Positions 1,174 to 40,727 of a DNA stretch of 64,000 nt are shown in pieces (positions within the stretch are counted from its first letter, which is position 1; each line of letters starts with the position of its first letter). Position numbers and translations under genes: made by a program. Origin of the DNA: Ferrimonas lipolytica (lineage in GTDB: Bacteria; Pseudomonadota; Gammaproteobacteria; Enterobacterales; Shewanellaceae); contig NZ_CP051180.1 in NCBI RefSeq assembly GCF_012295575.1, forward strand, positions 682,001 through 746,000, in the 5' to 3' direction. The notes under the pieces were generated by a model. That model made no database searches. It saw only the letters and a program-made list of their open reading frames with translations, and was not told where the DNA came from.

Positions 1174-1419
1174 GGCTGTGTCGTAGTTAGCTGTTGAAGT
1201 TTATCTTAAGTCTTCGGCTTCATCGATTGCGGTGCTTTTAGGGGGAGCTTCGCCCCCTTTGGAATCCCCCTTGCCTTAGGTCGCAGTCCAAAGCGCTTCG
1301 CTGGACTGCTCCAATGCGGCAGAAGATCAACGGCGGTAGTGCTTTCCCCTTGTACCAAAACTCGCCTAGCCGATGCTTTAACTGTATTAGAAAGAACAAC
1401 ACTTAATTGGTACACAGCC
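1174..1419 (-). mobile_element. MITE-like element, copy 1 (reverse orientation)
   Basis: A 246-bp non-coding element of the family also found at 35519, 37079 and 40469, here inverted relative to those. It starts GGCTGTGTCG and ends ACACAGCC. The ends form imperfect terminal inverted repeats of about 26 bp. It is flanked by a perfect 8-bp direct repeat TAAAAAAT (1166-1173 and 1420-1427), a clear target duplication. Inside are a GGGGGAGCTTCGCCCCC hairpin and blocks shared with all copies. It lacks the TGCATACAA-containing module of about 35 bp seen in the other three. The 69-codon minus-strand frame inside it has no support as a gene. Confidence 0.9.
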
Positions 1420-1420
1420 T

Positions 1421-1452
1421 AAAAAATGGCAGCTCTAGTGGCTGCCATTTTT
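1421..1452 (-). terminator. Intrinsic terminator of the DUF2062 gene
   Basis: Perfect 12-bp arms AAAAATGGCAGC (1422-1433) and GCTGCCATTTTT (1441-1452) enclose a 7-base loop. Read on the minus strand the hairpin is followed by a T tract. That tract is the target duplication of the adjacent MITE copy. Confidence 0.85.
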
Positions 1453-1466
1453 ATATCTTGTTGAGA

Positions 1467-1994
1467 TTAACTGTATCGCTTAGCTCGGTTTTTTTGCCGT
1501 TTGCGCCAGTTAAATAGAATGCCATATCTCCACAAGCTATTGATTATAAAGTAAGTAAATGCTGCACTGATAATGCCAAGCATCGCGCAGCCTAAAAGCA
1601 TCGGCGGGCCGACAGAGTGAATGCTTTCTGCCAGCCACTGCCAACTGAGCTCAAAGTTAAAGTCAGTCCGTTCTATTCCTAAGATGGATACGCCAAATGC
1701 GTAGGCGCTGTAGAACATAATTGGCATGGTGATTGGGTTTGAAATCCACACTGTAGCCACTGCTAAAGGCAGGTTCACCCCAAATAATATTGCGCTAAAG
1801 GCCGCTAATAACATCTGAAAGGGGATTGGCACCCAACACACTAATACGCCCAAGGCTAACGCGCCGGAGGCTGAGCGTCGGTTTAGATGCCATATGTTGG
1901 CTTGTTGCATCCATGGCCCCAGCAGCTTCAAATACTTATGCTGCCTCAACTGCTCTGGATCAGGCATGATGCGTTTAAATGTTCTTCTTGGCAT
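1467..1994 (-). CDS. DUF2062 family inner-membrane protein
   Basis: A 175-residue protein starting MPRRTFKRIMPDPEQLRQHK. Hydrophobic segments lie at roughly residues 46-75, 78-105 and 130-155, ending in a basic tail (FNWRKRQKNRAKRYS). The segment WISNPITMPIMFYSAYAFG with NP-IT-P is the signature I associate with DUF2062 proteins, whose function is unknown. It is divergent from comEC, and the two start codons overlap. In Shewanella a DUF2062 gene sits in the same position between lolCDE and comEC, which supports orthology. The gene ends at its own terminator. Confidence 0.88.
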   Translation of the reverse strand: MPRRTFKRIMPDPEQLRQHKYLKLLGPWMQQANIWHLNRRSASGALALGVLVCWVPIPFQMLLAAFSAILFGVNLPLAVATVWISNPITMPIMFYSAYAFGVSILGIERTDFNFELSWQWLAESIHSVGPPMLLGCAMLGIISAAFTYFIINSLWRYGILFNWRKRQKNRAKRYS

Positions 1995-4224
1995 GTGTTA
2001 CAACGTCACCTTATACCCAAAGTCCAATCGAATATTGCTGGGATGGATAAGTGCTTTAGCGACAGTGGTCGTCTGGCCCGCACTGGCTCCGCTCCCGGTA
2101 TTAGTTGTTGGCGTTCCCGCACTTTGGCTGCTTCGGCGCTTTCCTATCTCGTTCGGTTTTGCTGCAGGCTTGTTGTATGGCCAGTTTTGGTGCCACCATC
2201 TTAGCGGCACCGACCACCCTATTCCGTTAGGAAAGATGGTCGTAGTGGCGAAACTAAACTCCGCCCCGAACAGCGACGAACTATACCAGCGTAACCATTG
2301 GTTGGTCGAGTCAGTCAATGATCAAACCTTGCCGTGGTATGTCAGCAAAACGGTCGAGTTGAGCTGGCATCGGCCACCACCGCTGCAACTAGGCCAAACC
2401 TATCGGTTAGAGGTGAAACTGAAGCCCCCTAGTGGGGTTGTTAATCTAGGCGGCTTTAATCGATACCGGCATCTTCTGTCGCGCCATGTGGTCGCCAGCG
2501 GCTACGTCCGCCGGGGGGAGCTTCTCAGGTTGCAAGCGCATTGGCGTGGTGAGTTGTTACAGCGCCTAGCAGCGGCAACCGCTTTGTTACCTCAAGGAGA
2601 CATGATCCGCACATTGGTGTTGGCGGACGATCGCAGCGTAACCGACGAACGCTGGCAACAGATGCGTAAAGCTGGCCTGATTCACCTGTTGGCTATATCG
2701 GGTTTGCATCTATCTATTATGGCAGGGGCTGTGTTTACTGGGCTCAATTGGATTCGGCGTTACTTCTTTGCCGATGCTAGAGGGCATGGTTTGGCGCTGG
2801 TATGGCTAGCAACCGCAATGGCCGCTATTGGTTATGGCTGGTTGGCGGGGATGGAGTTACCAACACTACGAGCTACGGTGGCAGTGGTGTTTACGCTGTT
2901 GCTGCTGTGGGTTCGACGGCAAGCTCGGCCGTGGGAGCTGCTCCTGCGCGTTGCGGCACTGGTGTTGCTAGTGCAGCCCTTGGCCTCCATGGCCGCAGGT
3001 TTTTGGCTTAGCTTTGGCGCTGTAAGCGCTATCTTATTATTTGCGTGGTGGTGTCCACGGCCAACAACACGGCTACGTCAGTTAGGCTGGTTTTTCCGCT
3101 TACAAATAGTGTTGACACTACTGATGTGTTTGCTCCAAGGGGTGTGGTTTGGCACCTATTCATTCCATGGGGTGTGGACCAACATCTTGTTGCTTCCCTA
3201 TTTTTCATTGTTGGTACTGCCGCTGTGTTTGCTATTGAGCCTGTCCTATTTCATTGGCTTACCGTCGAGTTGGTTGCAGCTTGCTGATTGGTTATTGTGG
3301 CCGATTGCAGAGGTGGCTCAATTTGCAGCTGAACTCACTGTGGGTTTTGGCTTTTTAGCCAGTAGCATGGTTTGGCCATTGTGCTTGTTGGCTTTGGCTA
3401 TTGCAGTGGCTTTTTATCAATTGGTGGCGCAGTGGCGGCTCTGCAGCGGGGTGCTACTGATGAGTGCGCTTATGTGGTGGCGTTTACCGGTACCGCAATG
3501 GCAGCTCGACGTGATTGATGTCGGTCAAGGGCTGGCGTTATTGATAACCCATCAACAACAGGTGTTACTTTACGATACCGGTGCCGGTTTCCCCAGTGGC
3601 TTCAGCTATGCAAAAAATGCTATCTACCCGCTGATGCAACAGCGCGGTATTGCACAGGTCGATACATTGGTGATTAGTCATGGCGACAATGACCATGCTG
3701 GCGGAATGGGCTGGCTTAAAGAGCAGGTACCAATCGACCTGCATATCGGCCACGGCGGTGACCGTTGCCAACAAGGTCCCAGTCAGTGGGGGCAGCTCAC
3801 GCTATCTTGGTTTCAAGCTGAGGCTGACGGCAATGATGGCTCTTGCGTATTGCTTATTGAGTCAGCAACCCATCGATTATTGCTTAGCGGTGATATTGAG
3901 AAAGACGGTGAGCAGGCTTGGTTGGCTGCTACGCGGGACAGTAAGGTAGATGTGCTCATTGCACCGCATCATGGCTCCAATACCTCAAGCTCTGCTGCTT
4001 TTGTCGCACGCACTGCCCCGACTCATGTGGTCTTTGCCGCGGGCCGAAATAATCGTTGGGGCTTCCCTAAAAGCGAGGTAATTCAGCGTTATCGCCAACT
4101 TGGTTCTACCCTTTGGACTAGTGGCCAACAGGGGCAGATTCAATTTAATTTTCATGGTAGTGGCGAAATTTTAGTCGAAACATATCGGCGTAATTGGTTT
4201 CCTTGGTGGTATAACCAGCAGTAG
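1993..4224 (+). CDS. comEC: DNA internalisation channel ComEC/Rec2
   Basis: An integral membrane protein for transport of single-stranded DNA across the inner membrane during natural transformation. The order is an N-terminal membrane/OB-like region (DUF4131), the Competence domain with many hydrophobic segments (MRKAGLIHLLAISGLHLS at about 225 is its hallmark), and a C-terminal metallo-beta-lactamase-like domain with HGDNDHAGG at about 563 and APHHGSNTSSS near 660. The frame is open further upstream, but an earlier ATG (1894) would run 100 bp into the divergent DUF2062 gene. I therefore take ATG 1993, giving 743 residues. No convincing ribosome site is visible there, and TTG 2035 (LLGWISAL) is an alternative. 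Confidence 0.92.
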   Translation: MCYNVTLYPKSNRILLGWISALATVVVWPALAPLPVLVVGVPALWLLRRFPISFGFAAGLLYGQFWCHHLSGTDHPIPLGKMVVVAKLNSAPNSDELYQRNHWLVESVNDQTLPWYVSKTVELSWHRPPPLQLGQTYRLEVKLKPPSGVVNLGGFNRYRHLLSRHVVASGYVRRGELLRLQAHWRGELLQRLAAATALLPQGDMIRTLVLADDRSVTDERWQQMRKAGLIHLLAISGLHLSIMAGAVFTGLNWIRRYFFADARGHGLALVWLATAMAAIGYGWLAGMELPTLRATVAVVFTLLLLWVRRQARPWELLLRVAALVLLVQPLASMAAGFWLSFGAVSAILLFAWWCPRPTTRLRQLGWFFRLQIVLTLLMCLLQGVWFGTYSFHGVWTNILLLPYFSLLVLPLCLLLSLSYFIGLPSSWLQLADWLLWPIAEVAQFAAELTVGFGFLASSMVWPLCLLALAIAVAFYQLVAQWRLCSGVLLMSALMWWRLPVPQWQLDVIDVGQGLALLITHQQQVLLYDTGAGFPSGFSYAKNAIYPLMQQRGIAQVDTLVISHGDNDHAGGMGWLKEQVPIDLHIGHGGDRCQQGPSQWGQLTLSWFQAEADGNDGSCVLLIESATHRLLLSGDIEKDGEQAWLAATRDSKVDVLIAPHHGSNTSSSAAFVARTAPTHVVFAAGRNNRWGFPKSEVIQRYRQLGSTLWTSGQQGQIQFNFHGSGEILVETYRRNWFPWWYNQQ

Positions 4225-4295
4225 TGCACGCAAAATTTGGTATCGAACCACGGGCAAAGTAGAATGAGCGACTTTCTAAGCAACGAAGTACTGAC

Positions 4296-6044
4296 ATGAG
4301 TTCAGGAAAAACAGGCGCCTTTCGCGCAACTTTCAAGCGGTTGTGGCCATACGTTCGCCAATACAAATCCGGATTTTTTGCGGCCATCATCGGTATGGCC
4401 GTTTATGGTGTTGTTGATGCGTCGCTGGTTTATATGATTAAACCGTTAATCGATAACGGCCTTGCTGCAAGTGATCCGGCAACCTTGCGTTTTGCGCCGC
4501 TGGTGATTTTAGGGCTGTTTCTGTTTCGCGGTATCGCTAACTTTGTCTCAACTTATTGCCTTGCTTGGGTGAGCCAAAACGTTATCCACAATATGCGACA
4601 AGAGATCTTTGGCAAGTATCTACGGTTGCCGGTGAGCTTCTTTGACTCTAACTCTACCGGGGATTTGATCTCCAAAGTCACTTATGATGCCGAACAGGTG
4701 TCACGGGCTTCTTCCAGTGGTTTGATCATTATCGTTCGCGCCAGTTTCACCCTGATAGGCTTGTTGGCAATCATGTTTTGGGAAAGTTGGCAGCTGTCGG
4801 CTATCTTCTTCCTCATTGGCCCTATTATTGCGTTGGTGATTAGCACCGTAAGCAAACGCTTCCGAGCAGTGTCTAAGCGAATTCAAGGAGCCATGGGAGG
4901 GGTTACCACTGTCTCCGAGCAGATGTTAAAGGGCCATAAGAATGTGCTGGCTTTTGGTGGGCAGGAAGTTGAATTAAAAAGATTTACTAAGGCCAGTAAT
5001 CGCACTAGGCAGCAAAACATGAAGCTGTCTGCGGCCTCAGCTCTAAGCCAACCGTTGATTCAAATTATCGCTGCCATTGGCTTGAGTGTGGTGTTGTTTG
5101 TGGCCAGTTTTCCATCGATCTTAAACAGCCTTACTCCAGGCTCGTTTGTGGTAATTATTGGCTCGATGATGGCACTGATGACACCAATTAAGCAGCTGAC
5201 TAAGGTTAACGTGCAGCTTCAGCGCGGTGTTGCCGCCGCCGAAAGTATCTTTGCAGTATTGGATGAGCCGGAAGTTGACGATACTGGCACCAAAACATTG
5301 GGTCGTAGTGACGGTAAGATTGAAGTTAACGACTTAACCTTCCAGTACCCAAGTTCTGAAGGACCGGTATTGAAACAGGTCAATCTATCGGTACCTGCGG
5401 GGAAAACGCTGGCGTTAGTTGGTCGTTCTGGTTCTGGTAAGTCGACCTTGTCTAATCTGTTGCCTCGATTTTATGAGATCAATCAAGGCTCAATCGCCAT
5501 CGATGATGTCGATATTCGCGAGCTCACCATGGCCAGTCTCCGGCAGCAGATGGCGATTGTGTCGCAGCAAGTGGTGCTGTTTAACGACACCATTGCCAAT
5601 AACATTGCTTATGCCTGTGATGAAGCGGTTACTCGTGCTCAGATTGAAGCAGCAGCTGAGGCGGCGCATGTATTGGTGTTCACTAACGATATGCCTGAAG
5701 GCCTAGATACCATGGTGGGGGAAGATGGGTTGATGCTCTCCGGAGGTCAACGTCAGCGCATCGCCATTGCTCGAGCTATTTTACGTGATACCCCAATTTT
5801 GATTTTGGATGAAGCCACTTCCGCACTAGATACTGAGTCTGAGCGGGTGATTCAGTCGGCATTGGATCGTCTGGCCGCCAGTCGTACCTCTATCGTTATT
5901 GCCCACCGCCTTTCTACTATTGAGAAAGCCGATGAGATTGTGGTGATGGATAAGGGTGAAATCGTTGAGCGCGGCACTCACCAGCAGTTATTGGCTAAGC
6001 AGGGTGCTTATGCTCAGTTGCACGCGATGCAGTTCGGTGAATAA
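4296..6044 (+). CDS. msbA: Lipid A export ABC transporter MsbA
   Basis: A half-size ABC exporter that flips lipid A-core from the inner to the outer leaflet of the inner membrane using ATP. At 582 residues it equals the E. coli protein. The N-terminal transmembrane domain has six hydrophobic segments in about residues 25-320, with the MsbA landmark SFFDSNSTGDLISK. The nucleotide-binding domain has Walker A GRSGSGKST at 376, signature LSGGQRQR at 481, Walker B ILILDEATSALD shortly after, and a switch histidine in AHRLST. It lies 18 bp before lpxK, forming an msbA-lpxK-Trm112-kdsB unit. Confidence 0.97.
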   Translation: MSSGKTGAFRATFKRLWPYVRQYKSGFFAAIIGMAVYGVVDASLVYMIKPLIDNGLAASDPATLRFAPLVILGLFLFRGIANFVSTYCLAWVSQNVIHNMRQEIFGKYLRLPVSFFDSNSTGDLISKVTYDAEQVSRASSSGLIIIVRASFTLIGLLAIMFWESWQLSAIFFLIGPIIALVISTVSKRFRAVSKRIQGAMGGVTTVSEQMLKGHKNVLAFGGQEVELKRFTKASNRTRQQNMKLSAASALSQPLIQIIAAIGLSVVLFVASFPSILNSLTPGSFVVIIGSMMALMTPIKQLTKVNVQLQRGVAAAESIFAVLDEPEVDDTGTKTLGRSDGKIEVNDLTFQYPSSEGPVLKQVNLSVPAGKTLALVGRSGSGKSTLSNLLPRFYEINQGSIAIDDVDIRELTMASLRQQMAIVSQQVVLFNDTIANNIAYACDEAVTRAQIEAAAEAAHVLVFTNDMPEGLDTMVGEDGLMLSGGQRQRIAIARAILRDTPILILDEATSALDTESERVIQSALDRLAASRTSIVIAHRLSTIEKADEIVVMDKGEIVERGTHQQLLAKQGAYAQLHAMQFGE

Positions 6045-6062
6045 CGGTTTAGGTGGTCTCTA

Positions 6063-7049
6063 GTGCAGCAATGGTTTGAACGAGCATGGCAACACGGTCA
6101 TCCGCTGCTGTGGTTATTGGCTCCATTAACGCTTCTGTTTATTGGCATTAGCGCGTTGCGGCGTTGGTTGTTTGCTGCTGGTGTCAAATCCTCAATTGAG
6201 GTTGATGTACCGGTAGTCGTGGTTGGCAACATTAGTGTTGGCGGTAACGGTAAAACGCCAACGGTGTTGTATCTCACTGAGCTACTGCAACGCAGTGGTT
6301 ACCGGCCGGGGATCATCAGTCGCGGCTACGGTGGCGACAGCAAGCAGCATCCGATGTTGGTTGACAGCAACAGCGATCCGAAGCTCTGTGGTGACGAACC
6401 ATTATTAATGGCTCAGCGGAGCCAAGTGCCGTTGGCCGTAGGCTCTGACCGTGTTGCTGCTGCCAAGCTGCTGATTGATTCGGGGTTGGTCGATATCTTA
6501 ATTAGCGACGATGGCATGCAGCACTATCGGCTTGGGCGTACTATTGAAGTGGCGGTGATTGATGGTGTTCGCCGCTTTGGTAATGGGTTGCGATTGCCGA
6601 TGGGTCCACTGCGCGAGTCCGTCGGTCGCCTCCAGTACTGTGATTTGCTTATTTGCAATGGCGGTACAGCGCAATCGGGGGAGTGGCTGATGAAGCTTCA
6701 ACCCGCAGATTGGCTTAAGGTCGATGGCAGCGGTGCTGCGACTCCTGCGGGGGAGATGGTGGCGATGGCTGGAATCGGTCATCCCCCTCGATTTTTTGAT
6801 ACGATCGCTGAGCTCGGTTTACGTCCGGTACAATGCCACGCCTTCGTTGATCATATGCCTTACAGTGCTGAGATGTTGATGCCGCTGGTATCCGCTGAGC
6901 AGTCGTTATTAATGACAGAAAAAGATGCGGTTAAGTGTCGCGACTTTGCCCAGCACAACTGGTATTACCTACCTGTCAGTGCTAATTTGGGCGAAAAATT
7001 TGATAGTCACTTTTTGACTTTACTGAAGGAAAAGCTCAATGGCGTTTGA
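6063..7049 (+). CDS. lpxK: Tetraacyldisaccharide 4'-kinase LpxK
   Basis: Phosphorylates the 4' position of the tetraacyldisaccharide precursor to give lipid IVA, the sixth step of the Raetz pathway, at the inner membrane. It has 328 residues. An N-terminal hydrophobic anchor lies at about residues 14-38, followed by the P-loop [11 protein letters not shown] at 55-65. The [10 protein letters not shown] motif around 149 is typical of LpxK. The start codon is GTG at 6063, preceded by AGGTGG. The stop overlaps the next gene by 11 bp, indicating translational coupling. Confidence 0.96.
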
Positions 7050-7218
7050 TCATAAGTTGTTGGAAATCATCGCTTGCCCAGTGTGCAAGGGAAAGCTGGA
7101 ATATGATCGTGACGGTCAGCGTTTGATCTGTCGTGCCGATCGCTTGGTATACAGCATTGATGAAGGGATCCCAGTGTTGTTAGAAGACCGAGCAACGCCG
7201 CTAGAGAGTAACGACTAA
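7039..7218 (+). CDS. Trm112/YcaR family small zinc-ribbon-like protein
   Basis: A 59-residue protein, [20 protein letters not shown] at its start. It has the Trm112-like fold signature: C13-x2-C16 with a further C31, and the closing [10 protein letters not shown]. Genes of this type sit between lpxK and kdsB in many gammaproteobacteria (E. coli ycaR). Eukaryotic Trm112 activates methyltransferases; the bacterial role is not established. It overlaps lpxK by 11 bp and its stop TAA shares one base with the kdsB ATG (TAATG), so the three genes are coupled. Confidence 0.93.
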
Positions 7219-7958
7219 TGAGCTTTGTTGCGGTTATCCCTGCACGTTATGGCTCCAGCCGCCTGCCAGGTAAGCCTCTTGCAGAGATAGCAGGTAAGCC
7301 GATGGTCGCTCACGTTGTTGACCGTGCTAAGCAGTCCGGTGCCGCTCGCGTTGTGGTTGCAACCGATGACCAACGTGTTGTTGCTGCCCTTGGTAACCGC
7401 TGTGAAGTGCTGATGACCTCAGCAGATCACCAGTCCGGTACTGAGCGCCTGGCTGAAGTGGTTGAGTTGCTGCAACTGAGTGACGACACCATCGTGGTGA
7501 ATGTACAGGGGGATGAGCCGTTGATCCCTGCGGCCAATATCAGTCAGGTAGCGGCAAACCTAACCGACAGTAAAGCGCGTATGTCGACGTTAGCGGTGGC
7601 TATTGCCGACGCAGAAGAGATGCACAATCCTAATGCGGTCAAGGTTGTGTGCGATGAAGAAGGCTATGCACTCTATTTCTCACGCGCAGCCATTCCATGG
7701 GACCGTGACAGCTTTAACCAACAGCTTGGGGTAAGCCCAGGTGCATTGCGCCACGTTGGGATCTACGGATACCGTGCTGGCTTTATTCGCGATTACATTC
7801 GCTGGCCGGTTAGTCCGCTCGAACAGATTGAGTCGCTAGAGCAACTTCGAGTACTCTATCAAGGTGAAAAAATTCATGTCGCTGAGGCGATTGAGCCACC
7901 GCCTGCCGGGGTTGATACCGCTGAAGATTTAGCCAGAGTGCAAGCTATTCTGAGCTAA
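7218..7958 (+). CDS. kdsB: 3-deoxy-manno-octulosonate cytidylyltransferase KdsB
   Basis: Activates KDO with CTP to CMP-KDO for attachment to lipid A in LPS synthesis; cytoplasmic. It has 246 residues, close to the E. coli length. The N-terminal nucleotide-binding motif [15 protein letters not shown] (8-22) and [11 protein letters not shown] near 97 are the family hallmarks. Later AIPWDRD and HVGIYGYR are also conserved. It is the last gene of the msbA operon and is followed by a strong terminator. Confidence 0.97.
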
Positions 7959-7973
7959 ACACTAAGTAACAAT

Positions 7974-8002
7974 AAAAAGAGCACCGCTAAGGTGCTCTTT
8001 TT
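7974..8002. terminator. Bidirectional terminator between kdsB and the DUF-type membrane gene
   Basis: Perfect arms AAAAAGAGCACC and GGTGCTCTTTTT enclose a 5-base loop. Because both flanks are A/T tracts it can serve kdsB on the plus strand and the gene at 8022 on the minus strand. Confidence 0.9.
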
Positions 8003-8021
8003 GATCCTAGTGAGAGCGGCG

Positions 8022-8408
8022 TCAATTATAGTCGGGCCATAGCTCTTTTTGAGTTTCGGTTACTAGGTAGTTAAGGCGTTCTGGAGCAGGGGTGTCTTCT
8101 AACAGGATGCTGGTTGCGGCCAATTGGATCAAAATAATGAATACACAGACAATGACGGCTTTCCAGTATGGGCAATCTAAAACTAAGCTGACGGCAAATG
8201 CTCCGGCAAAGATGCTGGCTAGCCACGCAAACTGAGTGTCGTCGATTAGCTTAAATGCCATATCTTGCAAGGCTAGCACCGCGACTATACCGATAACGGC
8301 CCCAATAAAACTGGGGTTGCCGGTGCGTAAGACTCGTGCGCCGACATAGACCGGGGTGAGTCCAATAACTAAAGAGGCAGCAAGAAATAGCGCCAGTTGC
8401 ATCAGCAT
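8022..8408 (-). CDS. Hypothetical membrane protein, 128 residues
   Basis: I do not recognise this protein. It starts MLMQLALFLAASLVIGL and shows four hydrophobic stretches at about residues 3-24, 34-52, 60-78 and 82-102. A soluble C-terminal tail follows, ending TQKELWPDYN. It begins 4 bp after the stop of the metallo-hydrolase gene on the same strand, so the two are probably co-transcribed and share the terminator at 7974-8002. A second ATG lies two codons in. Confidence 0.7.
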   Translation of the reverse strand: MLMQLALFLAASLVIGLTPVYVGARVLRTGNPSFIGAVIGIVAVLALQDMAFKLIDDTQFAWLASIFAGAFAVSLVLDCPYWKAVIVCVFIILIQLAATSILLEDTPAPERLNYLVTETQKELWPDYN

Positions 8409-8412
8409 AGTG

Positions 8413-9264
8413 TTATCCGTTCAGTTCCGTCCAAAGGGTTTCAATCCAGCGTTCCTCAGTAATAAAACGCCAGCTCCATGATTGCAGGTGTTGCGGTAAT
8501 CCTTGCTCTAACCATACTGCCTTTGGTTGCTTCTGCATAGATTCTGCCCACGTTATCGATTGATTTAACATGGTTTTAAATTGTTCTAGATCAGCTTTGT
8601 TCGCTAATTCGCCGTGACCAGGGATGATCTTGGTATTGTTGTCGACACTAGCCAACACCTCGTCAACGCGGTTGATATAAGCGCGGACACTGCCGCCGTG
8701 GGCTTGGTCAACAAACGGGAAGGTATCTTTAAAAAACAGGTCGCCCATGTGAATTACATTGTGTTGTTTAAACCACACTAGTGAATCGCCATCGGTATGG
8801 CCAACGCCTAGGTGGACCACTTCGATATCTTGGTCGTTAAAATGAAAGGTGATCCCATCGTTGTAGGTCACTACCGGATAAGCAGACGGATTAACCTTGC
8901 TATCTTGTTGCAGATGCTTAAGCACGTTGTGGTGAGCAAACACGGTGCCGTGCTGGGCAAAATGGCCATTGCCGCCGGTGTGATCACCGTGATGGTGGGT
9001 GTTGATAATGAATTTGGGTTTGCCGGCGGCATCTGGTTGTAATGGCGTTAGTGCCTCGACAATACGTTGGGCTAGCGGAGCAAACTGGTCATCGATAATG
9101 AGTACGCCATCGGTACCGCTGCTGACTCCAATGTTACCGCCGGCACCGGTAAGCATATGGATCCCTGGGGCAACTTCGGTGGCGGTAATGTTGACCTCGG
9201 CAAAGCGATCGGCGCTGACGGTAGCGCTAAAACATAACGCCAAAAGCAGTATTTTGTTAAGCAT
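8413..9264 (-). CDS. Secreted MBL-fold metallo-hydrolase
   Basis: A periplasmic enzyme of the metallo-beta-lactamase superfamily, 283 residues. I chose ATG 9264 because it gives a clean signal peptide (MLNKILLLALCFSATVSA); the longer frame starts at a GTG and adds 17 non-signal residues. The zinc motif HHHGDHTGG lies around 91, with further metal ligands in GHTDGDS and PGHGE near 160 and 220. The family covers beta-lactamases, glyoxalase II-like and other hydrolases, and the substrate cannot be read from sequence. It sits behind the RND operon but is separated from it by a terminator. Confidence 0.85.
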   Translation of the reverse strand: MLNKILLLALCFSATVSADRFAEVNITATEVAPGIHMLTGAGGNIGVSSGTDGVLIIDDQFAPLAQRIVEALTPLQPDAAGKPKFIINTHHHGDHTGGNGHFAQHGTVFAHHNVLKHLQQDSKVNPSAYPVVTYNDGITFHFNDQDIEVVHLGVGHTDGDSLVWFKQHNVIHMGDLFFKDTFPFVDQAHGGSVRAYINRVDEVLASVDNNTKIIPGHGELANKADLEQFKTMLNQSITWAESMQKQPKAVWLEQGLPQHLQSWSWRFITEERWIETLWTELNG

Positions 9265-9305
9265 GTTGGAAAGTCCATTTGAACAATGAATAACCAACTT
9301 AGTTG

Positions 9306-9333
9306 AAAATGGCACCGCAATGAAGTGCCATTT
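9306..9333 (-). terminator. Terminator of the RND efflux operon
   Basis: Arms AAATGGCAC (9307-9315) and GTGCCATTT (9325-9333) with a 9-base loop; on the minus strand the stem is followed by TTTTC. It lies just beyond the stop of the second pump gene. Confidence 0.65.
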
Positions 9334-9357
9334 ATCAAGCTGCTGCGATTGCGTCTA

Positions 9358-26025: not shown

Positions 26026-26030
26026 TCTAC

Positions 26031-28149: not shown

Positions 28150-28187
28150 GCGCAGCAACGGCATAATGTCATAGCGTAACACTCGTT

Positions 28188-28215: not shown

Positions 28216-28276
28216 CTTCCTAAGGCACTTAGCAGTAGTCTTAATTCGGGAGTTTAACCATAAGGATATCGGCAAT

Positions 28277-31138: not shown

Positions 31139-31182
31139 TTCAGTCTCACAACACTGACAACGTTCCCTCCTTATACCTATTT

Positions 31183-31207
31183 GGCGCTGTAGTAGCGCCG
31201 CATTTTC
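31183..31207 (+). terminator. Weak hairpin after the chemoreceptor gene
   Basis: Arms GGCGCT and AGCGCC with a 5-base loop, then GCATTTT. It may partly separate the receptor from the porin gene. Confidence 0.4.
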
Positions 31208-31225
31208 CTCGTCTGGAGTTTAGAA

Positions 31226-32416: not shown

Positions 32417-32429
32417 GGGGATAATAACA

Positions 32430-32837
32430 ATGAAAAAACTGTCTATTGCCTTAGTGGGTATTGCGTTAAGTGTGTCTGCTCAAGCCGATGTGGTGCTGGT
32501 TGGTAACCCCGCAGCTGCTGAGCTCAGTCAAACGAACGCCTCTAAGCTGTTTCTAGGTAAGATGAAAACCCTACCTTGGGGCGGCAAACCGAAGTTGATT
32601 GAGCTGCAAGACGGCAATCCATTACGGCTTGAATTTCATCAAAAGGTAACCGGTAAGACCGAAGCACAGCTTAAGTCTTATTGGTCACGCTTGGTGTTCA
32701 CCGGCAAAGCTGCAGCACCGTCGCAAGTAACTTCTGCGGCACAAGTTAAACAGCAAGTTGCAGGTAATTCAGCGGCGGTTGGCTATATCGATCAAGCTGA
32801 TGTAGATGACAGCGTTAAGGTGCTACTAACGCCATAA
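32430..32837 (+). CDS. Small periplasmic PstS-like (phosphate-binding-type) protein
   Basis: A 135-residue secreted protein with signal peptide MKKLSIALVGIALSVSAQA. The body (LVGNPAAAELSQTNASKLFL, FHQKVTGKTEAQLKSYWSRL, VKQQVAGNSAAVGYIDQADV) matches the short 'phosphate ABC transporter substrate-binding' proteins of Vibrio and Shewanella. They correspond to about half of a normal PstS and usually lack an adjacent ABC transporter, as here. An actual phosphate ligand is not shown. It is the third gene after the chemoreceptor and porin. Confidence 0.82.
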   Translation: MKKLSIALVGIALSVSAQADVVLVGNPAAAELSQTNASKLFLGKMKTLPWGGKPKLIELQDGNPLRLEFHQKVTGKTEAQLKSYWSRLVFTGKAAAPSQVTSAAQVKQQVAGNSAAVGYIDQADVDDSVKVLLTP

Positions 32838-32880
32838 TCTGTCCATTGGGTATCGTTGTGTACCCAGAGGATGAAGACAC

Positions 32881-32910
32881 GAGGCCGAGCTTACTGCTCG
32901 GTCTTTTGCA
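32881..32910 (+). terminator. Terminator after the PstS-like gene
   Basis: Arms GGCCGAGC and GCTCGGTC with a 5-base loop, followed by TTTTG; one mismatch or wobble at the stem base. Confidence 0.65.
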
Positions 32911-33085
32911 TCTAATCAACACCCGCCAGAATCCGATAATAATAACGGTGATTGTGATCACGGTTGAGAAAATCAAAAAATCTGCATGAATCACTTGTGT
33001 GAACACAGTGTTCTAACTGTGCTGATGTACACTGCGCGCGCCAGATATTGTGTTCAATCCACTGCCACAAGGGATGTCGAGTAAG

Positions 33086-34834
33086 ATGAAGTCCGACTTA
33101 GCTATTTCACAACAGACCACACTGAAACCCATTAGCGTTATTGCCGCTCAAGCCGGAATCTTAGCTGATGAGGTAACATCCTATGGTGATACCAAGGCCA
33201 AACTGAAGTTTTCGCTGTTAAAGCGAGCAGAAGCTGAAGCTCAAGGGAAATTGGTTGTAGTAACGGCGATCACACCGACACCGCTAGGCGAAGGTAAAAC
33301 TGTGACCACGATAGGTTTGGCCCAAGGTCTACAACGTATTGGCACCAAGGTGATGGCATGTATTCGTCAACCGTCAATGGGGCCAGTATTTGGGGTTAAG
33401 GGAGGTGCAGCTGGCGGTGGTTATAGCCAAGTTGCGCCGATGGAAGAGCTGAATCTTCATTTAAGTGGAGATATTCATGCGGTAGCGGCCGCACATAACC
33501 TTGCTGCGGCAGCCATCGATGCCCGACTGTTCCACGAGCAGCAGCTTGGTAATGAGTTTACAGCTAAGACGGGGTTGTCACGGGTTGATATCGATCCTAA
33601 CCGGATTGCGTGGCGTCGTAGTGTTGATATGAACGATCGCGCACTGCGCCGGGTCACCATTGGCATCAATAGGCCGGGCTCAAGCGCCAATGGCATCGAA
33701 CGCGAAAGCGGCTTTGATATTACTGCTGCGTCTGAGTTAATGGCAGTGTTGGCATTGGCTGCTGATTTAGCCGATTTACGTCAGCGCCTTGGTAAGGTGG
33801 TGTTGGCCTATAATATCGATGGTAAACCGGTTACTGCTGAAGATATTCAGGTGGCTGGTGCGATGGCAGCAGTAATGCGCGACGCGGCCCAGCCGACACT
33901 AATGCAAACCTTAGAGGGTGTGCCTACCTTGGTGCATGCTGGCCCATTCGCCAACATCGCGCACGGCAACTCCTCCATTATTGCTGATAAAATGGCACTT
34001 GGCCTAGCCGATGTAGTCGTTACAGAGGGTGGGTTTGGCTCAGATATGGGCTTTGAGAAAGCCTGTAATATTAAAGCGCGTGCCGCGGGTAAATCCCCAG
34101 ATGCCGGTGTTGTTGTTGCTACCTTACGTGGCCTAAAAGCCAACTCTGGGGTGTATGATTTACGCCCAGGACAGACGCTGCCGCAGGCGATTTTCGAACC
34201 AGATCAACATGCCCTTGAAGCTGGCTTTGCTAACTTGCAATGGCACATTAATAACGTTAAGCGTTATGGGATTCCAGTTGTGGTGGCCTTAAATCGCTTT
34301 CCGCAAGACAGCGATGCCGAGCTGCAATGGCTGCAACAGCAAGTGGAAGCTCAAGGTGCATCGGTGGCCATTTCTGAAGCATTTAGTAAAGGCGGCGAGG
34401 GTGCTGAATTGTTAGCACAGCGAGTGGTTGAGGCTCTAGCACAACCATCAGAACAGTCGTTCCAATATCTGTATGATGTTGAACAATGCATTGAGCATAA
34501 GCTACTAACGATGGTGGAAGCAGGTTACGGTGGTGCTGGGATAGAGCTTAGTGAACAAGCCAAGGCCGATATCCTAACGTTGGCTAAGTTGGGCTATAGT
34601 AATCTACCGTTATGTATGGCCAAGTCACCGTTGTCAATCAGTCACAACCCCGCGTTAAAGGGAGTTCCTCGTGACTTTACGGTGCCAATCTCGTCGCTAA
34701 AACTGTGTGCTGGCTCAGGTTTCATTTATGTCTTAACCGGCAATGTCATGACCATGCCAGGTTTGTCGGCGACGCCCGCTTACTTAAATATCGACATCGA
34801 TGCCGATGGCAATATTACCGGCCTGGATGAGTGA
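33086..34834 (+). CDS. fhs: Formate--tetrahydrofolate ligase
   Basis: ATP-dependent synthesis of 10-formyl-THF from formate and THF, feeding one-carbon metabolism. It has 582 residues from ATG 33086, which matches the family N-terminus ([20 protein letters not shown]); AAGGGA lies 11 bases upstream. Earlier candidates are ATG 33074, which overlaps that site, and GTG 33050. The nucleotide-binding loop is [20 protein letters not shown] (about 65-85). [19 protein letters not shown] and [12 protein letters not shown] are other signatures. It is monocistronic. Confidence 0.96.
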
Positions 34835-35008
34835 TTTTTAGTGTAACGATGACCGCTTGCTTGGCGTAATAAGATTGCGCCGTGTCATCATTGCCGCCAA
34901 CATTTGTTACAGGCAAATCAGACAGGATAGCCAGAATCGGTTATCCTTATTGATTATTTTAAGCCTGTTGCGGCTGCTTTGCGCCCAACCACCTCTTAGG
35001 ACACATGA

Positions 35009-35458
35009 ATGATTAATAACGATGTACTGCGCATGGTGCGAGATTTACTTGAATACGATGATGCCACCATGACCGATGTGTTTGCGTTAGCTGAGCACAC
35101 CATCGACGTAGACACCGTCCATGCCATGTTGTTAACCAACGGCGACCAAAATTATCAGAAGTGTGACGATGAGCTTCTGGCGACCTTTTTGAATGGTTTG
35201 ATCAACAAGCTGCGTGGTAAAAAAGAGGGTGCTCTACCACTCGCAGAAACACATATCAACAACAATGGTGTGTTTATGAAACTGCGTATCGCTTTGAATT
35301 TGCAAGCTGAACAAGTTTTGGAAACCCTAGCGCTGGGCGGTGTAGAGCTGAGTAAGCACGAACTGAGTGCGTTTTTCCGTAAACCGAATAACAAACACTA
35401 CCGTGACTGTAATGACGCAACCCTAGTCGCGTTTTTACGTGGTGCGGCGTTGCGATAA
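35009..35458 (+). CDS. DUF1456 family protein (YehS-like)
   Basis: A 149-residue cytoplasmic protein made of two similar halves. Each half opens with a hydrophobic/acidic helix (MINNDVLRMVRDLLEYDDAT; GVFMKLRIALNLQAEQVLE) and ends in a YxxCxD-type segment (NYQKCDDELLATFLNGL; HYRDCNDATLVAFLRG). This internal repeat is the DUF1456/YehS hallmark. Function unknown. It ends at a strong terminator that carries a MITE insertion in its T tract. Confidence 0.9.
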   Translation: MINNDVLRMVRDLLEYDDATMTDVFALAEHTIDVDTVHAMLLTNGDQNYQKCDDELLATFLNGLINKLRGKKEGALPLAETHINNNGVFMKLRIALNLQAEQVLETLALGGVELSKHELSAFFRKPNNKHYRDCNDATLVAFLRGAALR

Positions 35459-35483
35459 AACGCGACTAATAATCGATTTGACT

Positions 35484-35516
35484 AACGCCAAACGGGCAAC
35501 CGTTTGGCGTTTTTTT
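35484..35516 (+). terminator. Terminator of the DUF1456 gene
   Basis: Perfect 12-bp arms AACGCCAAACGG and CCGTTTGGCGTT with loop GCAA, followed by a T tract that forms part of the MITE target site. Confidence 0.94.
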
Positions 35517-35518
35517 AT

Positions 35519-35798
35519 GGCTTAGTACCAACTGAGTGTTGTGCTAACCAATGCTGTTAAAGCACTGGCTAGGTGAGTCGCGATACAAAGGATAAAGCAC
35601 TACCGCTATTGATCTTCTGCCGCATTGGAGCAGTTCAGCGAAGCGTTTTGGACTGTGACCTAAGGCAAAGGGGGCGAAGCTCCCCCCTTATGCATACAAT
35701 GATGTGCCGCCGCCACCGCGACATATTCCCCTAAAAGCACCGAAATCGGTGAAGCCGAAGGCTTAAGATAAACTTCAACAGTTAACTACGATATAGCC
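35519..35798 (+). mobile_element. MITE-like element, copy 2
   Basis: A 280-bp member of the family, starting GGCTTAGTACC (slightly diverged from GGCTGTGTACC) and ending GATATAGCC. Flanks share TTTTTAT(G) on both sides, a near-perfect 8-bp duplication blurred by the terminator T tract. The internal blocks GTTAAAGCAC, GAAGCGTTTTGGACTG, GGGGGCGAAGCTCCCCCC and CCGAAATCGGTGAAGCCGAA are shared with the other copies. The 224 bp between its end and the next gene (to 36022) show no gene I can support. Confidence 0.88.
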
Positions 35799-36022
35799 TT
35801 TTTATGCCAATTTGAGTGTCGTGACAACCATGAAATGTCGTGAGTTCTTGAGGCGCACGATGTTGGTTCCAATTGGTTAATCCAAAGCTTATGGGTAACT
35901 AAGCTGATAGTACTGGCGTCAATTGGGTTAATAACCACTGCTGGGTGAGCAGCACTAGTGGAGCAATAAACTCGTATTAAGCTAGCTGTGCGATTTATCG
36001 GCACCGCTAGCTTAGTTAGCTG

Positions 36023-36415
36023 CTATTTGCCTGCAAGGTGATCAAAGTGGGCGTGGTCTTCGGCACAAAAGCTGGGTAGTAGCACCAATGGAATGGCTTC
36101 AAACTCAATTCTGTCTAGCGGTTGATAGCGCGCTCCGACCAGCGAGCTGGCTCGAATCCCATCTTCTAACGCTAACCGCTCGGGGTAACGAAAATCGACA
36201 ATCAGATCTTCATCCGTGTGCCAAACCAACCAGTAGTGTGGGGTTACCGCAAAACCTTCATCATCGATATAGCTGCCGCTCCAAAGGCTAGCCGATTGCT
36301 GGTGGTGCGCCAGAATACTGAACACCGCTTGAGACAGTGGTTTAGCCGTAAGCTGTGGCGTCGGTAGGTCGAGCAGGGCATTAATTAACTGAGTTGCGGT
36401 GAACGTTGTTGTCAT
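36023..36415 (-). CDS. Hypothetical protein, 130 residues
   Basis: I do not recognise this protein. It starts MTTTFTATQLINALLDLPTP behind a good ribosome site (AAGGAG, 8 bases before the ATG), which supports a real gene. It is soluble, acidic and rich in aromatic and histidine residues. Visible stretches are HYWLVWHTDEDLIVDFRYPE in the middle and FCAEDHAHFDHLAGK at the end. It has no signal peptide, membrane segment or known motif. It stands alone between two MITE copies. Confidence 0.65.
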   Translation of the reverse strand: MTTTFTATQLINALLDLPTPQLTAKPLSQAVFSILAHHQQSASLWSGSYIDDEGFAVTPHYWLVWHTDEDLIVDFRYPERLALEDGIRASSLVGARYQPLDRIEFEAIPLVLLPSFCAEDHAHFDHLAGK

Positions 36416-36644
36416 AACCCGCTCCTTAACGATGGATCTTAACGGTAATAATCAGTTACCTCGTGACTAACTGCAAGTGGCATCGCTAGCTCAGCACGAT
36501 TAATGGCAAAACAGCGGTGCTGGTTTGGGAAGGTGGCTACCCAAGTAGTGGGCATGCCTTGAATTTTCTCTGTGGTTGCTGCACTTTATGGTTCAACGCT
36601 CAAGCTGTTGTTGAGATGGAATGTGGGATTCACAAGGAGAGAAG

Positions 36645-37022
36645 ATGTTCAGTCACATCATGATTGGCGCCAATGACATGCAGCAATCTAAGCGGTTTTA
36701 CGATGCCGTATTTGCTGAGCTTGGCTACAGCGCAGGCACCATGGACGAGAAAGGGCGCTGTTTCTATATTACTCCAACCGGAGTCTTTGCACTTACCAAG
36801 CCGATAGATGGTAAGGACGCGACTCACGGCAATGGCAGCACCATTGGTTTTGCAGCAGCGTCGCCCCAACAGGCGGATGCTTGGCATCAGGCTGGTCTTA
36901 CCAACGGCGGTAGCGCCTGTGAAGAACCACCTGGGATCCGTGCTGGTGGTTCTATAGGGGATCTCTATATCGCCTACCTGCGTGATCCATCAGGTAATAA
37001 AATCTGCGCGTTACATCGTTAA
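36645..37022 (+). CDS. VOC family protein (glyoxalase/dioxygenase-like)
   Basis: A 125-residue vicinal-oxygen-chelate domain protein. ATG 36645 is preceded by AAGGAGAG; the longer frame adds 8 residues with no ribosome site. The opening MFSHIMIGANDMQQSKRFYD and the closing AYLRDPSGNKICALH are characteristic. A metal ligand His is at position 4 (SH-I-M-IG) and a Glu/His pattern follows in the second half. The family includes glyoxalase I, fosfomycin resistance and ring-cleavage enzymes; the substrate is unknown. Confidence 0.9.
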   Translation: MFSHIMIGANDMQQSKRFYDAVFAELGYSAGTMDEKGRCFYITPTGVFALTKPIDGKDATHGNGSTIGFAAASPQQADAWHQAGLTNGGSACEEPPGIRAGGSIGDLYIAYLRDPSGNKICALHR

Positions 37023-37078
37023 ACAATCAAGGCTTAGCCCGATAGCTAACGTTAATACCTAATCGCTGTAGCTAAAAA

Positions 37079-37374
37079 GGCTGTGTACTAACTAAGTGTT
37101 TTTCTTTTCAATACTGTTAAAGCACCAGCTAGGCGAGTATTGATACAAGGGGTAAAGCACTACCGATGTTGACCTTTTGCCGCATTGGAGCAGTCTAGCG
37201 AAGCGTTTTGGACTACAACCTTAGGTAAGGGGGATTCCAAAGGTGGGGGGCAGAACTCCCCCCTAATGCATACAAGAATATGCCGTCGCCACCGCGGCAT
37301 AACCCCTTAAGAGAACTACAAGCGGTAGAGCCGAAGGCTTGATATAAACCTCAACACTTAACTGTGACACCGCC
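37079..37374 (+). mobile_element. MITE-like element, copy 3
   Basis: The longest copy, 296 bp, starting GGCTGTGTACTA and ending GACACCGCC. It shares all internal blocks with copies 2 and 4. Its flanks (GCTAAAAA and CCAAAAAA) are only partly alike, so the target duplication has decayed. The right end lies against the A tract of a terminator hairpin at 37377-37408. Confidence 0.85.
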
Positions 37375-37376
37375 CC

Positions 37377-37408
37377 AAAAAACGCGGTGACCTAAGGCGC
37401 CGTGTTTT
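37377..37408 (-). terminator. Terminator of the SEC-C motif gene
   Basis: Arms AAAACGCGGTG (37379-37389) and CGCCGTGTTTT (37398-37408) pair with two G-T wobbles. On the minus strand the stem is followed by a T run (the A run at 37377-37382). Confidence 0.7.
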
Positions 37409-37429
37409 AATTCAGGAAAGTGGGGGAAC

Positions 37430-37762
37430 TTAACCGCAGCACTTCTTGAATTTTTTACCACTGCCGCAAGTGCATGGGTCATTACGACCTGGGGTCGCCG
37501 CGGTGGTAACGGTTTCCGGCTTGGAAACTATCGCGTCCAGTTGCGTGATATCTTCAGCTTGATCGGCGATCACTGCAATGGTGGCAACCAAATTGTGTTG
37601 CTCAACCTGTGCTTGAATCTCTGCGCGGCGCGCTTCGGTAGCAACTTGCAATGATAACGGCATCTCTTCGCTACCCAGCTTTACTTCACGTTTGGTGTTG
37701 TAGCCGAAACTTTCGTGCTTGGGTTTCTTCTCAATTTTGCCTTTAAAGAAAAACTTAGACAT
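37430..37762 (-). CDS. SWIM/SEC-C metal-binding motif protein (PBPRA1643 family)
   Basis: A 110-residue cytoplasmic protein starting MSKFFFKGKIEKKPKHESFG. It ends with a SEC-C zinc motif, GRNDPCTCGSGKKFKKCCG (about 92-110), in which C-x-C-x8-CC ligands are visible. This matches the 'PBPRA1643 family SWIM/SEC-C' proteins of marine gammaproteobacteria. The SEC-C motif of SecA binds zinc, SecB and ribosomes; the role of these small stand-alone proteins is not known. Confidence 0.9.
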   Translation of the reverse strand: MSKFFFKGKIEKKPKHESFGYNTKREVKLGSEEMPLSLQVATEARRAEIQAQVEQHNLVATIAVIADQAEDITQLDAIVSKPETVTTAATPGRNDPCTCGSGKKFKKCCG

Positions 37763-38035
37763 GGATGCGTTACCTATACAATTGTGCTGGGCGGAGCGTT
37801 ATACCCTATTTGCGGCTAAGTTTGTACTGAATATTGCTTACTCTTAGCGCAATCGTGACCATGTCATCGAAGCGGGTTAGGTCGTTGAGTTAAACCGGTT
37901 TCAGCGGCAATATCAGTAATGTGTGCGGTTGACGCAGTTTGTTATCACTTTTTACTCTTTCAGACCGAGTTGGTGTGTGTTTTCGGTTGTCGGAATTTGC
38001 TAATCTGCTTGTCAATTATCTAAGTGAGAATCGTC

Positions 38036-38680
38036 ATGAAGTACCAGATCATCCCAGTGACCCCATTTCAGCAAAACTGCTCACTAGTGTGGTGTGAAGC
38101 CACTAAACAAGCAGCAGTGATCGATCCCGGCGGCGACATTGAGCGCATCGTTAGTGCAGCTGAAACCCTCGGGGTGACCATTGAACAGATCTGGCTTACC
38201 CACGGTCATATTGATCATGTAGGTGGTGCGGATAAGTTGGCTAAGCAGCTTCAGGTTAATATCCTTGGCCCGCACGAAGCCGACAAGTTCTGGTTGGACG
38301 CGCTTGATCAGCAGTCGCAAAAGTTTGGCTTCCCACGTATTGAACCCTTCACCTCAACTCGATTCTTAATCGAGGGTGACCGTCTTAACTTAGGTGAAAT
38401 TGAGTTAGAAGTAATCCATACCCCAGGTCATACGCCGGGCCACGTGGTGTTTTTCCACCGCTCTAGCGCGACCGCCTTTGTTGGTGACGTGCTGTTCCAT
38501 GGTTCCATTGGCCGTACCGATTTTCCTATGTCCGATCACCAAGCACTTATTGACTCTATTACTCAAAAACTGTGGCCATTGGGCGATAACGTTAGCTTTA
38601 TTCCGGGGCATGGCCCAGGTGCGACCTTTGCTGATGAACGTCGTAAGAACCCGTTTGTTGCCGATTCGGTATTGGGTTAA
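38036..38680 (+). CDS. gloC: Type II glyoxalase-like MBL-fold hydrolase (YcbL/GloC)
   Basis: A 214-residue cytoplasmic metallo-hydrolase, near the E. coli YcbL length. ATG 38036 gives MKYQIIPVTPFQQNCSLVWC, aligning with YcbL; an in-frame GTG 12 bases earlier is an alternative. The zinc motif THGHIDHVGG lies near 55, HTPGHTPGH near 130, and GDVLFHGSIGRTD and FIPGHGPG follow. The family hydrolyses S-lactoylglutathione and related thioesters. It is followed 5 bp later by a small secreted-protein gene. Confidence 0.92.
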   Translation: MKYQIIPVTPFQQNCSLVWCEATKQAAVIDPGGDIERIVSAAETLGVTIEQIWLTHGHIDHVGGADKLAKQLQVNILGPHEADKFWLDALDQQSQKFGFPRIEPFTSTRFLIEGDRLNLGEIELEVIHTPGHTPGHVVFFHRSSATAFVGDVLFHGSIGRTDFPMSDHQALIDSITQKLWPLGDNVSFIPGHGPGATFADERRKNPFVADSVLG

Positions 38681-38685
38681 GTCGC

Positions 38686-39177
38686 TTGAAGCGCATTCTT
38701 AAAGCCGCCCTGATGGGCGGTTTAATGTTGCTCTGTTACAGTGCTGCCGCTGTTGATCTTGGACAAAAGTTGAACCAATTCAGCTTGGAGGACCAGTTCG
38801 GTCAAGCTCATCTTGTCGACATCTCCTCAGCCACCTTGCTGTTTACCGATAGCCGTTCGGCGGGAGAGGTTGTCTCTGCGGTGATGCAGCAACTGCCTTT
38901 GGTTGAACAGCAACGGCTGACTTACGTGATCGACATCAGTGAGATGCCGTCGATGATTACGCGATTCTTTGCTCTTCCAAAGATGAAGAAGATGCCGTTT
39001 ATCATGCTGCTGGATAGGGATGGCGATGTTACTTCCAGCTTTCCCCGACGCGAAGACCAAGTGACGCTGATGTGTATCAGCAACGGCAAGCTAAGCGACC
39101 TACAGTTTTATCAGCAGCAACAGCAGCTCCAACAAGCACTGCTGCAGCCACAATGTGAGCGACTAGCGGCTAATTAA
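38686..39177 (+). CDS. Secreted protein with thioredoxin-like fold but no CxxC
   Basis: A 163-residue protein. TTG 38686 gives an intact signal peptide (MKRILKAALMGGLMLLCYSAAA), preceded by GGGTTAAG; ATG 38713 would truncate it. The body runs LGQKLNQFSLEDQFGQAH, then LLFTDSRSAGEVVSAVMQQL, then MKKMPFIMLLDRDGDV, a pattern reminiscent of AhpC/TSA or SCO-like thioredoxin folds (with a MPF cis-proline-like position). There are no redox cysteines at the usual place. Function unknown. It is coupled to gloC and its end overlaps the convergent glycerate kinase gene by 8 bp. Confidence 0.75.
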   Translation: MKRILKAALMGGLMLLCYSAAAVDLGQKLNQFSLEDQFGQAHLVDISSATLLFTDSRSAGEVVSAVMQQLPLVEQQRLTYVIDISEMPSMITRFFALPKMKKMPFIMLLDRDGDVTSSFPRREDQVTLMCISNGKLSDLQFYQQQQQLQQALLQPQCERLAAN

Positions 39178-40318
39178 ACTCGAGCTTTTGCGCCAGTGAC
39201 CAAACGCGTATGACGTTGGTTGCGGTTTGTTTTAGGTTTTCTGCAGCCCCTAATTTAACCAGTTCAAAACTCATCGGTGCCGGTACGCAGGCAAACATGG
39301 CATCAAGCCCGTGTTCGCTCAACACCTTGGCGTCCTCTTTTAAACTGCCGGCGATCGCAATAACAGGCAGGTTGAATTGCTTTGCTCGTTTTGCCACTCC
39401 AATCGGGGTTTTTCCGTGCACGCTTTGAGCATCAAGCCTACCTTCGCCAGTAATAACCAGATCGGCGTCGGCAAGGTAGCTATCCAGCGCAATGGCATCC
39501 AATACCAAGTCCACTCCAGGACGGAGCGTGGCTTTAAGGAAAGCGATAGCACCAGCACCCATTCCACCGGCAGCACCGGCGCCGGCGTTATTGATTACGT
39601 CTATATTTAGCTGTTGTTCAATGCAACGGCCAAAATGAGCCAAGGCGCTGTCGAGTTGCTGCACCATGGCCTCAGTAGCGCCTTTTTGTGGGCCAAAAAT
39701 GGCCGAGGCACCGGTAGCTCCGCACAACGGATTATCAACGTCGCACGCCACCTGGATATCGATCTGTTGTAAACGCTTATCGATACCGCTTAAATCGATG
39801 CTCGACAGGGCAGCCAAAGCAGCACCACCAGAGCTAATATGATTACCATCAGCATCCAATAGCTTGGCACCTAGGGCTTTTACCATACCGGCTCCGCCGT
39901 CATTGGTGGCGCTGCCACCTAGCCCAAGTAACAGCGTATCGATACCACAGTCCAATGCAGCCTTGATGAGTTCGCCGGTACCAAAGCTACAGGTATTGAG
40001 AGGGTTGCGTTGCTCCGGTGCTACCAGGTGTAACCCAGACGCTTCTGCCATCTCCACCACTGCAGTCTTGCCATCGCCTAATAGCGCAAACTTGGCTTGA
40101 TTTGGGCGGCCAAGCGGGTCACAGGCAGTAATCTCAATAAAGCGTCCGCCGGTGGCATCAACCAAGGTTTGAGTTGTGCCTTCACCACCATCGGCTGCCG
40201 GCAGTTTAACCACTTTGGCAGTTGGCATAGCAGCAAGGATCCCTGCTTCAATTTGGGTAGCCGCTTCCATCGCGGTTAAGCTCTCTTTAAATGAATCTGG
40301 GGCAACGACGATCTTCAC
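39170..40318 (-). CDS. Glycerate kinase (GarK/GlxK family)
   Basis: Phosphorylates D-glycerate, probably to 2-phosphoglycerate as in GarK-type enzymes. It has 382 residues, the usual length. MKIVVAPDSFKESLTAMEAA is the classic N-terminus. LPAADGGEGTTQTLVDATGG (about 40-59), GLGGSATNDGGAGMVKALGA (about 130-150) and VITGEGRLDAQSVHGKTPIG near 285 are family signatures. No sugar-acid catabolic genes are adjacent, so its pathway here is open. Confidence 0.95.
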   Translation of the reverse strand: MKIVVAPDSFKESLTAMEAATQIEAGILAAMPTAKVVKLPAADGGEGTTQTLVDATGGRFIEITACDPLGRPNQAKFALLGDGKTAVVEMAEASGLHLVAPEQRNPLNTCSFGTGELIKAALDCGIDTLLLGLGGSATNDGGAGMVKALGAKLLDADGNHISSGGAALAALSSIDLSGIDKRLQQIDIQVACDVDNPLCGATGASAIFGPQKGATEAMVQQLDSALAHFGRCIEQQLNIDVINNAGAGAAGGMGAGAIAFLKATLRPGVDLVLDAIALDSYLADADLVITGEGRLDAQSVHGKTPIGVAKRAKQFNLPVIAIAGSLKEDAKVLSEHGLDAMFACVPAPMSFELVKLGAAENLKQTATNVIRVWSLAQKLEFN

Positions 40319-40468
40319 GGCTTTCTCCGATACACAGTTTATGGGCGCTATTATTGTGATTATATAGGGAGTTTCCTCTTAACCAGTTCACAGTTGTGGC
40401 GGTTAGATTGTGATTATTTGATATTTTTTGTGTATGGCTACGCCAGTTGCTTTTAAAGCATACAAAAA

Positions 40469-40727
40469 GGCTGTGTACCAATTAAGTGTTGTTCTTTCTA
40501 ATACAGTTAAAGCACCGGCTCGACGAGCGCCGATACAAGGGGTTAAGCACTACCGCCGTTGACATTCTGCCGCTTTGGACTGCGACCTAAGGCAAGGGGG
40601 GATTCCAAAGGGGCGAAGCTCCCCGCTAATGCATACAAGAATGACCGCGACATCCTCCCCCAAAAGCACCGAAATCGGTGAAGCCGAAGGCTTAAGATAA
40701 ACTTCAACAGCTAAGTACGACACAGCC
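40469..40727 (+). mobile_element. MITE-like element, copy 4
   Basis: A 259-bp copy with well-kept ends: GGCTGTGTACCAATTAAGTG on the left, and ACACAGCC on the right. It is flanked by a perfect 8-bp direct repeat TACAAAAA (40461-40468 and 40728-40735). Folding one end onto the other gives matches at GGCTGTGT, TTA and TGTTG within the first 26 bp. It sits in the A tract distal to the mtrB terminator. Confidence 0.92.

Follow-up and report, generated by a model that had tools for sequence, protein, structure and literature searches.

A high-copy MITE family of Ferrimonas lipolytica with a likely IS1595-family partner and an association with intrinsic terminators

Host-sparing transposons are known for their choice of targets, for example, tRNA genes and attachment sites. 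Bacterial MITEs such as Correia, Chunjie, and ERIC are short and non-coding, carry terminal repeats, are flanked by duplications, and occur in high copy numbers, and MITEs with partner insertion sequences (ISs) are well known, as described in a review (PMC10969869) whose main text does not use the term IS1595. According to another source, the duplications of the IS1595 family are 8 bp long (PMC8101967). As for terminators as targets, intrinsic terminators are the insertion sites of group IIC introns (PMC4424553), and IS1272 and TnSha1 of the IS1182 family use stem-loops, including terminators, as their targets (PMC4923244). No report of a terminator preference of IS1595 elements or their MITEs was found in searches of open-licence PMC papers.

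The family described here shares all the above-mentioned traits of Correia, Chunjie, and ERIC, and differs from them in having IS1595-type ends and the U-tract of terminators as its target. Group IIC introns are RNA-based retroelements without terminal inverted repeats. These reverse-transcriptase-based elements contrast with the present family, which is characterized by terminal repeats, the DDE transposase of its likely partner, and 8-bp duplications; a group IIC intron identity was rejected on the grounds of the terminal inverted repeats, the 8-bp duplications, and the IS with the same ends. Insertion of IS1272 removes the stem-loop without any duplication (PMC4923244), whereas the present family keeps the hairpin and duplicates the U-tract.

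The window analysed here is a stretch of 64,000 nucleotides, bases 682001-746000 of the single 4.13-Mb contig of Ferrimonas lipolytica. A preliminary description of this window had claimed four non-coding, MITE-like elements with common ends, imperfect terminal inverted repeats of about 26 bp, and perfect 8-bp flanking repeats in two copies. All four elements were found where they had been placed, with common ends GGC...GCC, imperfect terminal inverted repeats of approximately 23-26 bp, and no open reading frame of 80 or more amino acids; together with the shared boundaries and the many copies, this bears out their MITE-like, non-coding nature. Copy 1 (1174..1419, minus strand, 246 bp) lies in the opposite orientation to copies 2-4, so that a direct alignment of the four copies understates its similarity. 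Its target duplication TAAAAAAT is perfect (8/8; 1166..1173 on the left and 1420..1427 on the right), and the right-hand repeat is the U-tract of a minus-strand terminator, whose hairpin (1425..1449, minus strand; 9-bp stem, 7-nt loop) follows the DUF2062 gene and adjoins the element. Copy 4 (40469..40727, plus strand, 259 bp) is likewise flanked by a perfect duplication, TACAAAAA (8/8; 40461..40468 on the left and 40728..40735 on the right). Here too the right-hand repeat is the U-tract of a minus-strand terminator, with its hairpin at 40735..40756 (minus strand), after an MtrB/PioB-like gene (40774-42753, minus strand).

The duplications of the other two copies are imperfect, as had been noted. 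The terminator hairpin after the DUF1456 gene (35485..35510, plus strand) stands directly before a T-tract, TTTTTTAT (35511..35518), which is both U-tract and left target repeat of copy 2 (35519..35798, plus strand, 280 bp); its counterpart on the right, TTTTTATG (35799-35806), agrees at 5/8 positions in register and is the same tract shifted by one base. In copy 3 (37079..37374, plus strand, 296 bp), the duplication has decayed (GCTAAAAA/CCAAAAAA, 6/8), and the imperfect hairpin beside it (37383..37404, minus strand; score 9) is under the cut-off and was not counted as a terminator. In other words, copies 1, 2, and 4 are located at the terminators of the DUF2062, DUF1456, and MtrB/PioB-like genes, respectively. 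Between copies 2, 3, and 4 lie a gene for a small SEC-C motif protein (37430-37762) and a 130-aa open reading frame without a Pfam match (36023-36415). The MtrB/PioB-like outer-membrane gene has six matches in the same genome.

The number of four copies applies to the window only, and the genome holds hundreds. In the genome-wide search that the preliminary description had proposed, the 23-nt left end gave 234 matches at up to three mismatches in the whole 4.13-Mb genome, and its IUPAC form gave 257 at up to two. The left-end pattern written backwards gave none, so the family is not a product of chance. BLAST with one copy gave at least 44 matches when the best 40 of 327 candidates were scored. 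We also sampled the genome evenly with 59 pieces of 20 kb each, which together with the window cover 1.244 Mb (30% of the genome). An oriented profile found 108 non-overlapping matches in 104 loci of this sample (24,861 bp, 2.0%), which corresponds by simple scaling to approximately 345 loci genome-wide. The pairing of inward-facing ends, with two overlapping pairs resolved, gave 77 elements in the sample, all but one of them with flanks. From 55 of these 76 copies, 240-310 bp long and with a mean pairwise identity of 84%, a consensus of 291 bp was built.

Perfect 8-bp duplications flank 27 of the 76 complete copies, against 0.49 expected by cross-pairing. Duplications of 7 bp (7 copies, 0.85 expected) and 9 bp (4 copies, 0.11 expected) are also in excess, which we take for slippage in T-runs, and those of 2-6 bp reach at most approximately 3.5 times the expectation. 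The elements thus combine terminal inverted repeats, a duplication of fixed length, shared boundaries, the absence of a transposase, and a partner with the same ends, and a high-copy MITE family with hundreds of copies in this genome is confirmed.

The likely partner element, whose existence had been predicted with its family unassigned, is of the IS1595 type. The F. lipolytica genome contains a single match to the transposase domain of IS1595. This match is interrupted by stops and sits in a 1029-bp element that has the same ends as the MITE and a duplication of 7/8. With an open transposase from F. futtsuensis as the query, two places were found in the genome, both of them remnants (9/9 candidates scored). 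The second is an IS derivative of 439 bp with an internal deletion; its ends fit the end pattern, and it is possibly a step from the IS to the MITE. At its position (C1:3351056-3351494; 657-1095 of locus L262), the flanks do not form a matching pair of target repeats. Neither remnant adjoins a hairpin. An intact transposase of this type did not turn up among the nine of nine candidates scored, which makes it probable that the family no longer moves in this genome.

Open copies are found in sister species. The F. futtsuensis transposase of 315 aa matches NF033547 at 185.4 bits (cut-off 75) and PF12762 at 42.9 bits (cut-off 27), and its N-terminal zinc ribbon matches NF050000 at 45.5 bits (cut-off 28), whereas the zinc ribbon model PF12760, at 21.0, stays under its cut-off of 25.4. 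In another sister species (G011), there are five copies of the IS, three of them open and two split into two frames. Their duplications are 8 bp long and perfect in 5/5 copies, as they are (8/8) at four F. futtsuensis loci. The element therefore shares with the IS1595 family its transposase family (NF033547, PF12762, and zinc ribbon), a length of approximately 1.02-1.03 kb, GG...CC ends, and the 8-bp duplication. The closest ISfinder-type name is ISAchd1, at 57% identity (among the best 25 of 34 plasmid records), and one more relative of the transposase came from a class-wide search (369 genomes, E 1e-60). ISAs1 and further families that make 8-bp duplications were set aside from the model search once the IS1595 element with the same ends had been found. 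The right end of the MITE resembles one end of the IS for some bases past the terminal repeat. Judging from these sequence comparisons, an IS1595-family IS with the same ends is the likely partner of the MITE family, and it would have moved the MITEs in trans.

The association of the MITE family with intrinsic terminators is firm, and this preference, together with the copy number, goes beyond the preliminary description. An intrinsic terminator in the correct polarity adjoins 40 of the 76 copies, compared with 63 of 1500 intergenic positions drawn at random; two of the 40 also have a hairpin on the wrong side, and none has the wrong polarity alone. When only strongly T- or A-rich octamers are considered, 32 of 39 copies are at terminators (274/1500 at random). 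No scored terminator adjoins the remaining 36 of the 76. For the distance between hairpin and duplication, only hairpins followed by at least four T in 8 nt were counted (50 of 152 sides). The base of the hairpin lies -1 (14), 0 (21), or +1 (4) nt from the start of the duplication in 39 of these 50 sides, and 10 nt or more from it in 8, which means that it is usually the U-tract that makes up the duplicated octamer. The hairpin is faced by either MITE end (22 versus 19). By a crude count in the sample, approximately 18% of the detected terminator loci are occupied (40 occupied, 182 free).

Comparison with sister species, rather than with the sister strains suggested earlier, revealed orthologous sites without the element. 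After the MtrB ortholog, a hairpin (score of at least 18) with a T-tract lies within 80 nt of the stop in 13/13 other Ferrimonas genomes, and no MITE end was found in the 1.5 kb read there in any of them. F. futtsuensis has an IS copy with one end 1.16 kb past its MtrB-like gene; in the window, it is the terminator of this gene that copy 4 occupies. After DUF2062, a T-tract hairpin is present in 12/13 genomes at a score of at least 17 and in 10/13 at a score of at least 18 (two of these hairpins have a poorer T-tract). No end was found downstream of DUF2062 in the 13 genomes, and two weak ends with four mismatches lie upstream. DUF1456 has a match in only four other genomes: an element-free terminator is present in G010, the closest relative; in G009, the hairpin comes with a poorer tract; and the remaining two scored none. 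These observations show that the terminators are present in sister species without the element.

Insertions at terminators have also occurred in these relatives. The end pattern is found in one of the 13 other Ferrimonas genomes, namely G010, in which it occurs 23 times, and is absent from 46/46 genomes outside the genus. We fetched 21 of the 23 listed places, and the tallies for G010 and G011 were made by eye from the flanks. Twelve complete elements were read in G010. The duplication is perfect in 10 of them, and 10 adjoin a hairpin-T tract, including one that has a wrong-side hairpin as well; among eight further stretches with a single end, a hairpin is on the visible side in one. The non-autonomous elements of G010 have related ends and are for the most part longer: of the 12 complete ones, ten measure 490-619 bp, one measures 264 bp, and one, with an extra end inside, measures 853 bp. 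In G011, all five IS copies have a perfect duplication and a hairpin on the T-tract side, and no hairpin was found at the visible end in F. kyonanensis.

A wider search for ends covered 50 of 66 transposase loci and 15 further loci, with 16 short fragments left out, and relatives of the IS were kept if their terminal repeats agreed at 18/24 or more and their duplication at 6/8 or more. Among the relatives of at least 50% identity, 10/29 are at terminators, against 82/3480 random positions in the flanks; the 29 include the four F. futtsuensis loci, which lie at contig ends and may represent only two insertions, and in 3/19 of those not at terminators the flank on the hairpin side is truncated. 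Among the relatives below 50% identity, none of five is at a terminator, which is too few to call the trait absent there.

We consider it highly probable that these high-copy MITEs were moved in trans by a DDE transposase of the IS1595 family, with cuts staggered by 8 bp and a preference for intrinsic terminators. One cut would fall where the hairpin meets the U-tract and the second 8 nt downstream, and this inferred cutting geometry would duplicate the U-tract. The upstream gene would then retain its hairpin and U-tract after the insertion, with the element just past the termination point, and insertion beyond terminators would probably be near-neutral and do little harm. That the elements are instead terminator-like regulatory repeats, spread by recombination and not as transposons, is very improbable: the consensus can fold extensively, but this account is contradicted by the 8-bp duplications and the orthologous terminators without the element, and the ends held in common with an IS and a search of the window against Rfam, which gave no match at gathering scores, also speak against it.

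Within transposition by the IS1595-type partner, the question is what directs the elements to terminators. It is quite possible that the transposase reads local sequence only, i.e., 8 bp rich in T/A between GC-rich stretches, with terminators being the commonest such sites and neither the hairpin nor termination playing a role. A T/A-rich octamer with G/C on both sides is also seen where there is no hairpin, so a local sequence preference does exist. Moreover, a 20-bp model built from all sites predicts 33.5 ± 3.5 hairpin sites, near enough to the 41 observed that local sequence may account for much of the association, although this model is partly circular because it has learnt terminator features. 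On the contrary, the same kind of model built from non-hairpin sites predicts 20.7 ± 3.5 against the 41 observed, a control for T-tract plus GC flank gives 268/1500 against 37/50 observed, and an exact-8-mer control gives 19.8 ± 3.4 expected against 41 of 69 sides observed. Since these three controls leave an excess and the all-site model a small one, the association itself stands, and the local GC/T8/GC sequence explains part of it. We put forward only tentatively, and as the more doubtful reading, that what this IS1595 lineage recognizes in the intrinsic terminator is a structure (hairpin DNA or RNA, or the polymerase as it terminates) and that it duplicates the U-tract exactly, in which case termination would remain intact after each insertion. 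It is also conceivable, and in our view unlikely, that insertion was broadly A/T-directed and that purifying selection removed the copies elsewhere, sparing those behind terminators. Where the context was assigned, 0/38 copies of the hairpin type lie between divergent genes, against 7/33 without a hairpin; this zero is expected of selection against promoter insertions, and also of terminators, and by sequence alone selection after insertion is only partly separable from targeting. However, the one-base precision of the distance from hairpin to duplication is not expected from selection alone, and neither is the same pattern in the elements of the sister species, whose duplications are mostly perfect (10/12 with perfect duplications, 10/12 at hairpins).

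If the 8-bp stagger does coincide with the U-tract, the family could multiply to hundreds of copies and seldom disrupt a gene. If, beyond this, the terminator is recognized as a structure, the family would be a DDE transposon with a built-in rule for harmless landing. How a small transposase finds terminators thus becomes a testable question, and the system is a possible insertion tool for marking the ends of transcription units.

Finally, two copies in the F. lipolytica genome (C1:1617420-1617673 and 1617725-1617941; locus L062) lie 51 bp apart, both with perfect 8-bp duplications. A single terminator-like hairpin is located between them; the first copy adjoins it, and the second lies some way beyond.
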